This document shows, piece after piece, positions 3,955 through 59,428 of a stretch of DNA of 64,000 nucleotides. The DNA is taken from positions 62,001 to 126,000 of the forward strand of contig CACOMO010000002.1 of NCBI GenBank assembly GCA_902628335.1. The letters are read 5' to 3'. Every line of letters begins with the position of its first letter. Position 1 is the first letter of the stretch. Both the position numbers and the translations under genes were made by a program. This DNA is from an uncultured Gammaproteobacteria bacterium (GTDB lineage: Bacteria > Pseudomonadota > Gammaproteobacteria > GCA-002705445 > GCA-002716945). The notes under the pieces are model-generated. The model ran no database searches and had not been told where the DNA came from. It was given only the letters and a program-made list of their open reading frames with translations.

Positions 3955-5286
3955 TTAATTAATCCCATATGCATTTTTAATAAGTGTAATTGGATGATTG
4001 GAAACGTGATTTTTACTTGATATATTAGCTATATGATTCCCAGCTAAAGAGCAGTCACTAATAAATTTTGGGTAATTTCCTGAATCCAATGCTTTAATAA
4101 TTGGTCTTGCTAGCTTAACAGATATTTTATGTGTCTCTTCCTTCACTCCATAGGTGCCATCATGCCCAGAACATTTCTCTAAAGCCTCGACATTCGTATC
4201 TGGCACAAGTTCTAGTACTTTCTTTGTTAATAGTCCAAAATTTTGAACCCGTTGATGGCATGCAACCTGATAAAAGACCGATCCTAACCCTTTTTTAAAA
4301 TCCATTTTAAGCATCCCTGATTTATGCAAAAAGAATAAATACTCAAATGGGTCATAAATTGATTCAGCAATTCTTTTCAAATCTATATTTTCAGGGAACA
4401 TCAGAGGGAGTTCCTGTTTAAACATTAAAACACATGACGGTACAGGGGCTATTATCTTAAAACCGTTTTGAATATATTTAGTTAATTCTTTAGAATTAGA
4501 TTTCATGAAAGATTCAACTTTTTCGAGATCACCTAACTCTAGTTTTGGCATACCGCAACAATTATCTTTTTTGATAATCTGAACAGACACATTATTATGT
4601 TTAAGCACTAAAGATAAATCTTCTATTATCTCTGGTTGATTATAATTATGGTAACAAGTAGTGTATATAGCAACTTTATTATCTGTTCCAGAAATATAAT
4701 CAAGTCGTGAGGCCATAGATTTTGCTGTAGTAGATGTAAACACTGGTAACTTGGCATTTATGTGTATATGCAATAATCTTGAGAGTATCTTCCTGAAAAA
4801 TGAGAGCTTAGTAAAATAATTCACGATCGGTGCAAAAATTCTATTTGCAAATATTTTACCAAGCAAGTCAGTAGATGTTAGGATTCTATCTCGAAACGAT
4901 ATTCTTTTTTTATTAAACTTAATTGTCTTAGCACGTAGCATTAGGTGTGGAAAATCTATTTCCCACTCATGAGGTGGGACATAGGGACATTTTGTTAAGA
5001 AACAGAGATCGCATAAGTAGCAGTGGTTAACAACCTCTTCAAATTGAGAATATTCAACACCATCTACTTCGAAAGTCTCAGATTCATCGATAAGATCAAA
5101 TAATGAGGGGAAAGATTTACATAAACTGACACACCTTCTACATCCATGGCATGCATCTGCGACTCTCCTTAATTCTTTCTCAAACAAATCCTCATTTAGA
5201 TAATCAGGATTTTTCCAGTCAACATTATGGCGAACCGGTCTCTCTAAACCACCTTCCATTCTCTCTCCCATTAGTACACTCCCCAT
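3955..5286 (-). CDS. Heterodisulfide reductase / GlpC-like (Fe-S)-binding protein
   Basis: CHGCRRCVSLCKSFPSLF and CYLCDLCFLTKCPYVPPHEW ferredoxin-type clusters plus CCG-domain motifs (NCCGMPKLELGD, CHQRVQNFG, CSGHDGTYGVK). Confidence 0.88.
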   Translation of the reverse strand: MGSVLMGERMEGGLERPVRHNVDWKNPDYLNEDLFEKELRRVADACHGCRRCVSLCKSFPSLFDLIDESETFEVDGVEYSQFEEVVNHCYLCDLCFLTKCPYVPPHEWEIDFPHLMLRAKTIKFNKKRISFRDRILTSTDLLGKIFANRIFAPIVNYFTKLSFFRKILSRLLHIHINAKLPVFTSTTAKSMASRLDYISGTDNKVAIYTTCYHNYNQPEIIEDLSLVLKHNNVSVQIIKKDNCCGMPKLELGDLEKVESFMKSNSKELTKYIQNGFKIIAPVPSCVLMFKQELPLMFPENIDLKRIAESIYDPFEYLFFLHKSGMLKMDFKKGLGSVFYQVACHQRVQNFGLLTKKVLELVPDTNVEALEKCSGHDGTYGVKEETHKISVKLARPIIKALDSGNYPKFISDCSLAGNHIANISSKNHVSNHPITLIKNAYGIN

Positions 5287-5307: not shown

Positions 5308-5727
5308 CTATACGAGTGCTTCTAGCGCTTTTGCAAATCTGTTAGCATGAGAACGTTCAGCTTTAGCAAGTGTCTCAAACCAATCAGCAATTTCATCGAA
5401 ACCCTCATCTCTTGCAGTTTTAGCCATCCCGGGATACATATCAGTATATTCATGTGTTTCTCCAGCTATTGCGGCCTTGAGATTAGATTCGCTGTCACCA
5501 ATTGGCTCACCTGTTGCAGGATCACCGCATTCTTTTTCAAGATATTCTAAGTGTCCATGTGCATGACCAGTTTCCCCCTCTGCAGTTGACCGAAAGACGG
5601 TTGCAACGTCATTTTGCCCTTCTACATCAGCCTTTGCAGCAAAGTATAAATATCTTCTATTTGCTTGAGACTCCCCTGCAAAAGCATCTTTTAAATTTTG
5701 TTCAGTTTTAGAACCCTTTAAACTCAT
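5308..5727 (-). CDS. Rubrerythrin
   Basis: [37 protein letters not shown]...[15 protein letters not shown]: rubrerythrin di-iron ExxH motifs. Confidence 0.93.
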
Positions 5728-54350: not shown

Positions 54351-54439
54351 TTAATCCAAATTCTGATTCCCCAGGATAATAAGTCATTCTATCACCCTTA
54401 TATCAGGAGGGTTTAGGCAATAAATGATAATAATTCCTA

Positions 54440-54468
54440 TTTACAAATGATTATCATTTACATATAAT
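54440..54468 (+). promoter_or_regulatory. Sigma70-like promoter with Fur-box-like palindrome in the spacer, upstream of azoR-prx
   Basis: TTTACA (54440-54445) -17 nt- TATAAT (54463-54468); perfect palindrome AAATGATTATCATTT at 54445-54459. Confidence 0.65.
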
Positions 54469-54497
54469 ACTCCTATAAGAAAAATTGGAGAGATATC

Positions 54498-55124
54498 ATG
54501 AAAAAAGTATTATATATCGAGGCGTCACCTCGAAAAGAAAGATCGCATTCCATCAAGATTGCAAAAGAATACATCGCTAAAGTTACAGAAAATAAAAGCG
54601 ATGTAGAAGTAAAAACAATCGATCTCTGGTCGATGAACCTCCCTGAATTTGACGGAGATATGATGGATGCGAAATATGCCACAATAGCTGGAAGCGACCC
54701 TACAGATGGCCAAAAATCTGAATGGGGTAAAGTAAAAAACATTTTTGATGAATTCGCAGATGCTGATTATTATGTGTTCAGCGTTCCTATGTGGAATTTT
54801 AATATTCCATATAAACTTAAACATTATATAGATATCGTGACACAGCCAGGAATGTCATGGAGTTTTACGCCGGAAGAGGGCTATAAGGGTCTCATGTCAG
54901 GAAGAACTGCAACTGTGATATACGCAAGTGGCGACGGATATGGTGAAGGAACTGGATTCGAGTCTTATGACTTACAAAAACCTTATATTGAACTATGGCT
55001 AGCATTTATTGGTTTTGACAAAGTTGAAAAAGTTATTGCAGACCGAACATTATTTGAGCCAGAGGAATCTGAAAAAAGAGCATCTGATGTTGCTCAAAAA
55101 TTAGCAAACTCACATTCATTATAA
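54498..55124 (+). CDS. azoR: FMN-dependent NADH-azoreductase / NAD(P)H quinone oxidoreductase
   Basis: LYIEASPRKERSHSIKIAKEYI, SVPMWNFNIPYKLKHYIDIVTQPGMSWSFTPEEGYKGLM. Confidence 0.9.
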   Translation: MKKVLYIEASPRKERSHSIKIAKEYIAKVTENKSDVEVKTIDLWSMNLPEFDGDMMDAKYATIAGSDPTDGQKSEWGKVKNIFDEFADADYYVFSVPMWNFNIPYKLKHYIDIVTQPGMSWSFTPEEGYKGLMSGRTATVIYASGDGYGEGTGFESYDLQKPYIELWLAFIGFDKVEKVIADRTLFEPEESEKRASDVAQKLANSHSL

Positions 55125-55139
55125 ATTAGGAGGAGAACA

Positions 55140-55787
55140 ATGAGTTTAAAACTAGGAGAAACAGCGCCTGACTTTAAGGCACAAACAACAGATGGTGAAA
55201 TTAGCTTTCATGACTATATTGGTGATAGTTATTGCATGTTATTCTCACACCCTAAGGATTTTACGCCTGTGTGTAGTACAGAATTATCAAGAACAGCTGC
55301 ACTAAAGCCTGAATTTGATAAGCGTAACACTAAAATTATTGGTTTATCTGTAGATAGTGTTGGTGATCACTCTAAGTGGGAGAGTGATATTGGAGATGTA
55401 GCAGAGCATTTTAATGGTGCGCCGCTTAATTTTCCATTAATAGCAGATAATGATAAAAAAATATCTGAATTATATGGAATGATTCATCCTGGTGAGTTAG
55501 ATCAACTAACAATCAGAAGTGTATTCATAATCGGTCCAGATAAAAAAATAAAACTAATAATGACCTATCCGGCAAGCACAGGTAGAAATTTTAATGAAAT
55601 TCTACGTGCTCTAGACTCAATTCAATTGACAGCAGACCATAAAGTGGCAACACCTGTTGATTGGCAACATGGAGACGATTGTATTATCGTTCCAGCATTA
55701 TCTGATGATGATGCAAAAGGCTTATTTCCAAATGGCTGGAAAACTCTTAAATCATATTTAAGACTAGTTCCAGATCCAAAAAAATAA
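55140..55787 (+). CDS. Peroxiredoxin (1-Cys / Prx6-like)
   Basis: MLFSHPKDFTPVCSTELSRTAAL; long C-terminal domain with VATPVDWQHGDDCIIVPALSDDDA. Confidence 0.95.
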   Translation: MSLKLGETAPDFKAQTTDGEISFHDYIGDSYCMLFSHPKDFTPVCSTELSRTAALKPEFDKRNTKIIGLSVDSVGDHSKWESDIGDVAEHFNGAPLNFPLIADNDKKISELYGMIHPGELDQLTIRSVFIIGPDKKIKLIMTYPASTGRNFNEILRALDSIQLTADHKVATPVDWQHGDDCIIVPALSDDDAKGLFPNGWKTLKSYLRLVPDPKK

Positions 55788-55800
55788 ATTTGTTGATTAT

Positions 55801-55931
55801 GGGTCTTAACCTAGAAATGTTTAGTATATATCTCTCCCCATAAACTACCTTAGGTTAAGATCTACAAATTTCATGTAGATGGGTCCTAGTAAATCGTCCA
55901 ATCATAACTAGCTTACTAGGGCCTAAACATT
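55801..55931 (+). ncRNA. Candidate structured RNA (three tandem hairpins plus a possible pseudoknot)
   Basis: TCTTAACCTA/TAGGTTAAGA, ATCTACA/TGTAGAT, GGGTCCTAGTAA/TTACTAGGGCCT, long-range AATGTTTAG/CTAAACATT; followed by a hairpin-T terminator at 55952-55973. Confidence 0.4.
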
Positions 55932-55944
55932 AAAAAATTATCAT

Positions 55945-55973
55945 AAAAAAAGCCCCGTCAACGGGGCTTTTTA
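55945..55973. terminator. Bidirectional intrinsic terminator at the 3' end of the 23S-5S unit
   Basis: AAAAAAAGCCCCGTCAACGGGGCTTTTT: 7-bp GC-rich stem flanked by A-run and T-run. Confidence 0.9.
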
Positions 55974-55978
55974 TTCAA

Positions 55979-56092
55979 GCTGACAGTGTCCTACTCTCAC
56001 ATAGGGAGACCCTATACTACCATCGGCGCTATATGGTTTCACTTCTGAGTTCGGGATGGATCAGGTGGTTCCCATATGCTATTGCCATCAAA
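55979..56092 (-). rRNA. rrf: 5S rRNA
   Basis: TGATGGCAATAGC...CACCTGATCCATCCCGAACTCAGAAGTGAAACCATATAGCGCCGATGGTAGT...GAGAGTAGGACACTGTCA. Confidence 0.95.
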
Positions 56093-56162
56093 CATTGAAT
56101 TCTTAGAATCCATAAATGGAATTGTACAATTCTAATCTTAATCTTAGACACTTTTAAAGTTA

Positions 56163-59075
<2,913 letters not shown>

Positions 59076-59355
59076 TTATAACTTAAAAAATGCCTATAAA
59101 AGCAATTTCTAAATCGGTTCTCGTCATTAAAAGTAACATTTCCAACATTGTATCTTTTTAATACAAAAGGTTGATTTTAATTCTAAGATTAAAATGCATA
59201 TGTACAATTCCAAATTTTCATCAGAGCTTAAAAAAGCGAGCATCGCTTTTAATACTCACCGAAGATAATTATAGCTGAATGCTAATGAATTAGTAGTGTT
59301 ATTTGAAGAGATTTTGTGAATTTATAGGGTTTCCAGGCCCGTTTTTCTTACTCTT

Positions 59356-59428
59356 TGGAGCTAGTCGGGATCGAACCGACGACCTCCTGCTTGCAAAGCA
59401 GATGCTCTCCCAGCTGAGCTATAGCCCC
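59356..59428 (-). tRNA. tRNA-Ala (TGC)
   Basis: GGGGCTATAGCTCAGCTGGGAGAGCATCTGCTTTGCAAGCAGGAGGTCGTCGGTTCGATCCCGACTAGCTCCA. Confidence 0.96.

Follow-up and report, generated by a model that had tools for sequence, protein, structure and literature searches.

We identified a conserved structured RNA element directly after the peroxiredoxin gene prx in the window (the whole 64,000-nt stretch of DNA analysed here), whose C-rich loop is complementary to the ribosome-binding site of azoR, the first gene of the same predicted operon. We consider it moderately probable that the element is a 3'UTR RNA induced through Fur, and that it represses the azoR-prx operon from which it comes as well as, probably in the form of an sRNA, mRNAs related to iron. 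The original prediction had recognized a structured RNA here, but it missed the anti-Shine-Dalgarno loop, the match of this loop to the ribosome-binding sites of azoR and other genes, and the Fur-type promoter. The comparison set was one family, covered by 25 genomes of small size (0.7-1.2 Mb) from six genera, g1-g6, with g1 as the genus of this genome. Both azoR and prx were found in 8 genomes; G019 is a ninth genome with azoR, which lies there at the edge of a contig. The genus members compared were those of g1, including the nearest relative G002, those of the sister genus g2 (G017, G006 and G013) and those of g6 (G024, G020 and G012). The features are listed in Table 1.

Table 1. Coordinates of the 3' element, the azoR-prx transcription unit and two predicted target genes in the window
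Feature	Position	Strand	Description
Promoter TTTACA-17-TATAAT, sigma-70-type	54440-54468	+	11/12 match, upstream of azoR; conserved in relatives
Fur-type boxes AATGATAATAATT (54423-54435) and AATGATTATCATT (54446-54458)	54423-54458	+	Second box inside promoter spacer
azoR ribosome-binding site GGAGAGATAT	54487-54496	+	Exact 10-nt complement of SL1 loop
azoR	54498-55124	+	FMN-dependent NADH-azoreductase-like flavodoxin-fold protein; Pfam Flavodoxin_2 2e-41
prx	55140-55787	+	1-Cys-type peroxiredoxin; Pfam AhpC-TSA and 1-cysPrx_C
SL1	55801-55863	+	Long hairpin with inner stem; basis: fold and relatives
SL1 loop GTATATATCTCTCCCCA	55824-55840	+	About 99% unpaired in predicted ensemble
SL2	55860-55880	+	Small hairpin; g1 only
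SL3 hairpin GGGTCCTAGTAA/TTACTAGGGCCT	55881-55924	+	Basis: fold and compensated pairs in relatives
Intrinsic terminator	55952-55972	both	GCCCCGTCAACGGGGC, then T5 on +
Rubrerythrin, predicted target	5311-5727	-	Site GGGAGAGA before start; run 8 in g1, 9 in g2 (g2 loop); Pfam Rubrerythrin
GlpC-like Fe-S protein, predicted target	3958-5271	-	Adjoins rubrerythrin; energy -16.7 in both g1 genomes; Pfam CCG

The fold of the element was compared with that of dinucleotide shuffles. The results showed that segment 55786-55976 folded at -58.2 kcal/mol compared to -31.2 +/- 4.0 for the shuffles (z -6.8; 0/200 as low), and that the element without its terminator reached -38.9 kcal/mol (z -4.7), while the opposite strand gave a z of only -2.1. 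All hairpin arms named in the original prediction lay where it had placed them, and SL3 and the terminator hairpin folded as it had described. SL1 proved to be a real hairpin, but the 10 bp assigned to it were too few, as the stem extends further and holds an inner GUUUA/UAAAC stem (55819-55823/55841-55845) enclosing the 17-nt loop; the C-rich anti-Shine-Dalgarno seed ATATCTCTCC lies within this loop at 55828-55837. The arms of SL2 were present in the sequence, but they fell outside the minimum-free-energy fold, were altered in G002 and were absent from g2. A pseudoknot had also been proposed, and the complementarity for it exists here, but it carries a mismatch in G002 (CTATACAT for CTAAACAT) and has no counterpart in g2; we rejected it as a general feature because it is not kept in relatives and would form in competition with the inner SL1 stem, which is itself supported. 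The terminator could be used in both directions, by azoR-prx on the + strand and by the rRNA operon on the - strand. An open reading frame scan of the element found no frame of at least 20 aa, in line with the absence of coding potential noted before, and the suggested Rfam check (Rfam 15, both modes) returned no family at the gathering cut-off, the top sub-threshold match being FasX (27.3 bits vs a cut-off of 100). The element is single-copy in its own 910-kb genome assembly and stands in the same place in relatives, so a mobile or repeated element was rejected.

Structured sequence was found 3' of prx in 8/8 genomes with the azoR-prx pair. Compared to G002, the 64-nt SL1 region showed 0 changes and SL3 showed one, SL2 differed, and the terminator had another sequence with the same hairpin. 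At four-fold degenerate sites of the same two genomes, 43/79 differed in prx and 41/70 in azoR (54-59%), so chance is excluded as the source of the unchanged SL1 (~3e-25 at the four-fold-site rate). The sequence after prx has diverged in g2, yet SL1 and SL3 recur there. Pairs were counted in a hand structural alignment of 4 distinct sequences, a kind of alignment that leans towards structure and was used because MAFFT misaligned the hairpins; SL1 had 12 pairs with 0 broken and 7 compensated, SL3 had 12 pairs with 0 broken and 6 compensated, and the two hairpins together had 24 pairs with 0/96 cells broken and compensatory double changes at 13 pairs. After re-dealing of the 3' letters, zero broken cells arose in 1/2000 trials for SL1 and 0/2000 for SL3. 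These results indicate that the helices are kept by compensatory changes, as in a structured RNA. The loop was unchanged within each genus, C-rich in all and identical across the three g2 genomes; g2 had no clear terminator after the element. In g6, the same place held two segments with different C-rich loops (CCUCCUC and CUCCC), which we treat as putative homologs by position, without alignment support, and the first hairpin of G012 fell outside the minimum-free-energy fold. Two further similarities were discarded: that to G017:C36 was a chance 26-nt match, and the short loop pattern in viral contigs came from three chance matches in unrelated contexts.

The promoter upstream of azoR was the only strong promoter match of the region. 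Predicted Fur-type motifs (AATGATAAT) were present in the azoR promoter region in 8/8 genomes, with one motif within the spacer, and the genome encodes a Fur protein. Agreement with the Fur consensus was 13/19 in this genome and 16-17/19 in G006, G013 and G012. Judged by sequence, this is the Fur-box-in-promoter arrangement of iron-sparing sRNAs of the RyhB/FsrA/IsrR kind (13-17/19 in 8 genomes). The promoter, the Fur-type boxes and the encoded Fur protein therefore argue for a 3'UTR of a Fur-controlled azoR-prx mRNA, while the score of only 13/19 in the genome itself counts against Fur control. Because SL1 begins 13 nt after the prx stop, structure follows prx in 8/8 genomes and a strong promoter lies only before azoR, the element is most likely a structured 3'UTR of the azoR-prx mRNA and not a stand-alone gene, although processing may yet free it as an sRNA. 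Both options had been offered by the original prediction; a conserved structured RNA is supported, and the evidence favours the 3'UTR. As with RNAs of the CarZ/OppZ kind, the element lies directly 3' of the last gene of the operon and, as far as sequence alone tells, has no promoter of its own. The azoR product scored below the cut-offs of the NCBIfam azoreductase models. Among 369 genomes sampled from the class, six azoR loci outside the family turned up, none of them with prx next to azoR. Elsewhere, the best Fur-box match of this genome (L085:11128) and a joint-best match of G002 (L201:14170) each lay upstream of a gene for a periplasmic binding protein that by eye resembles an FbpA-type iron carrier.

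The loop sequence AUAUCUCUCC (55828-55837) perfectly complements GGAGAGAUAU at the azoR site, and a complementary run of at least 10 nt to the loop was found for 2/476 genes. This g1 match was first spotted by eye in this genome, and the other genera served as the test. In g6, the loop (CUCCUCAUUU) and the azoR site (AAAUGAGGAG) both differ from those of g1 and are still complementary over 10, 10 and 8 nt, with azoR ranking 1/150, 1/232 and 3/272 among the genes by energy. Exchanging the loops gave runs of 4-5 nt for g6 loops on g1 azoR sites and of 5-7 nt for the g1 loop on g6 sites. The match at the g2 azoR site was short and unremarkable. Complementarity to the initiation region of the own operon was thus strong in g1 and g6 and weak in g2, supporting azoR as a predicted self-target in two of three genera; the weak g2 match fits our best explanation poorly. 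RNAcofold is unable to represent the loop pairing and gave no loop duplex.

The loops of g1 and g2 differ by one C to U change (AUAUCUCUCC/UUAUUUCUCC). In step with this change, the g1/g2 sites differ before aprB (GGAGAGAUA/GGAGAAAUAAUUA), rubrerythrin (GGGAGAGA/GGAGAAAUA) and a carbon-nitrogen hydrolase (amidase; GGAGAGAUAU/GAGAAAUA), as does the ribosome-binding site of the membrane protein adjoining aprB in the apr operon. Four ortholog groups matched their own loop in both g1 and g2 (mean run at least 7.5 nt) compared to 0.39 expected (permutation P = 0.0004) and to 1 group with the loops swapped. Decoy loop pairs that kept the C-rich core gave a mean of 0.35 groups, and 1/60 pairs reached 4. 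In single genomes, matches of at least 9 nt were ~2-3 times those of decoys in 8/8, individually mostly non-significant. Given heuristic start codons and partial genomes, the co-change and decoy tests lend moderate, not decisive, support to the predicted trans targets. Among the 20 best targets common to both g1 genomes, 7 were linked to iron, Fe-S or heme (AprB, its QmoC-like neighbour, the GlpC-like Fe-S protein, rubrerythrin, CtaA, HemA and a NarI/DsrM-like cytochrome b) compared to 4/30 random genes; because several of the seven share operons, this weak enrichment among predicted targets is suggestive only. The rubrerythrin gene itself has upstream Fur-like boxes in G006 (L097:12769) and G012 (L142:8462), which fits poorly with simple iron-sparing.

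The RNA structure and its conservation, its position, the loop accessibility, the loop-site complementarity co-changing between genera and the Fur-type promoter were computed here; from these we infer transcription, processing, Hfq use and repression, and they suggest an iron-sparing purpose. Under iron shortage, Fur would be released and azoR-prx transcribed, so that the element would appear at low iron. The 3' end of the mRNA would then present SL1 with its accessible C-rich anti-Shine-Dalgarno loop, with SL3 and the terminator probably guarding the end. Blocking of the azoR ribosome-binding site by the loop would provide negative feedback on the own operon. A processed, stable 3' fragment would probably also bind the mRNAs of aprB and the gene next to it in the operon, of rubrerythrin and the neighbouring Fe-S protein, and of the amidase by pairing with their ribosome-binding sites, and such pairing would lower their translation. 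Hfq is encoded in g1 and g2 and was present in every examined genome of genera other than g6; it was not found (PF17209) in 9/9 g6 genomes (G010, G012, G014, G016, G018, G020, G022, G023 and G024), an apparent loss at genus level. The g6 form would therefore have to act purely in cis or rely on a different helper, which counts against our best explanation.

Two findings speak for a purely cis-acting 3'UTR: the g6 genomes have no detectable Hfq, and no target other than azoR is matched in g1 as well as in g6. In such a 3'UTR, as in icaR, the loop would find its partner at the azoR 5' end of its own mRNA and would have no trans targets. We regard this as unlikely, since the aprB, rubrerythrin and amidase sites co-change with the loop between g1 and g2, and the g2 azoR match is weak even though the loop is identical in three g2 genomes. 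It appears very improbable that the element is a separate sRNA gene transcribed from a promoter of its own within the last part of prx: promoters of sRNAs inside open reading frames are known (PMC9438474) and a weak promoter-like match (9/12) lies at 55661-55690, but there were 11 such matches, near the 6.5 +/- 2.5 of shuffles, this part of prx has diverged even between the closest pair of genomes, and the gap to SL1 is short. It is also quite improbable that the hairpins form a structural 3' end only, protecting the mRNA and ending transcription around a C-rich loop without regulatory meaning. Strong hairpins do stand directly 5' of the terminator, and SL3 may guard the end in g2; however, a spacer loop needs no conservation, whereas this loop is constant within each genus and C-rich throughout, and its complementarity to the sites exceeds that of decoys.

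The reading of a Fur-induced, self-repressing 3'UTR RNA was compared with known systems. RyhB, PrrF and HrrF are Fur-controlled sRNAs that repress iron-protein mRNAs in gammaproteobacteria, as is proposed for the element, but they are stand-alone genes, and the element matches none of them in Rfam. CcsR1-4, the cuckoo RNAs, carry CCUCCUCCC loops, which the g6 form of the element resembles. They are oxidative-stress sRNAs of Rhodobacter sphaeroides that RNase E releases from a co-transcript (PMC7866481); unlike the element, which has no Rfam match, they are four tandem copies and alphaproteobacterial. IsrR of Staphylococcus and FsrA of Bacillus are iron-sparing sRNAs under Fur control that direct C-rich motifs against Shine-Dalgarno sequences (PMC9410917). 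With them the element shares the Fur-type promoter, a C-rich single-stranded loop aimed at the Shine-Dalgarno sequence and predicted Fe-S and iron-protein targets; unlike these separate Gram-positive genes, it is part of a 3'UTR and has a match within its own operon as well, and no sequence kinship was found. CarZ and OppZ of Vibrio cholerae are 3'UTR-derived autoregulatory sRNAs that pair with the start region of the first or an inner gene of their own operon (PMC7398697), as predicted here for the first gene, but they have other sequences and are not known as Fur-controlled, and RNase E processing and Hfq dependence are established for them. In the icaR 3'UTR of Staphylococcus aureus, a C-rich UCCCC motif is reported to pair in cis with the mRNA's own ribosome-binding site, with cleavage by RNase III (PMC7821165); the same kind of pairing is predicted here, although the element has further predicted targets and its loop lies within a covarying hairpin. 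Sequence kinship to CarZ or to the icaR 3'UTR was likewise not found. None of the open-access literature searched described an RNA that unites a Fur promoter, an origin in a 3'UTR and a self-target.

We tentatively propose that small-genome uncultured gammaproteobacteria have an RNA family not described before. Its members would be iron-sparing RNAs in the 3'UTR of a Fur-controlled redox operon, with a second role as repressors of their own mRNA, and their seed loop would have been rewritten between genera together with the ribosome-binding sites of the targets, in one genus after loss of Hfq; this wider picture is possible, but we would not yet call it probable. Post-transcriptional regulation is almost unknown for small-genome uncultured bacteria. 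If true, the conserved 3'UTR RNA, with its link to Fur and its genus-specific seeds, would be a concrete iron regulator in such bacteria and a natural record of sRNA seed and target sites changing together, and iron control would join the known roles of self-regulating 3'UTR RNAs.

Two observations concern the surroundings of the element. Positions 55978-59428 of the window hold 5S, 23S and tRNA-Ala genes, with no 16S rRNA detected adjoining, and a 20-kb stretch of G002 with 23S and tRNA-Ala, ~2.2 kb apart, likewise had no 16S rRNA detected; a split rRNA operon could explain the missing 16S, as could masking or the assembly. At three g6 loci (L055, L050 and L049), a small open reading frame follows the prx 3'UTR and encodes a single-membrane-span-like peptide starting with MNFIESHF.
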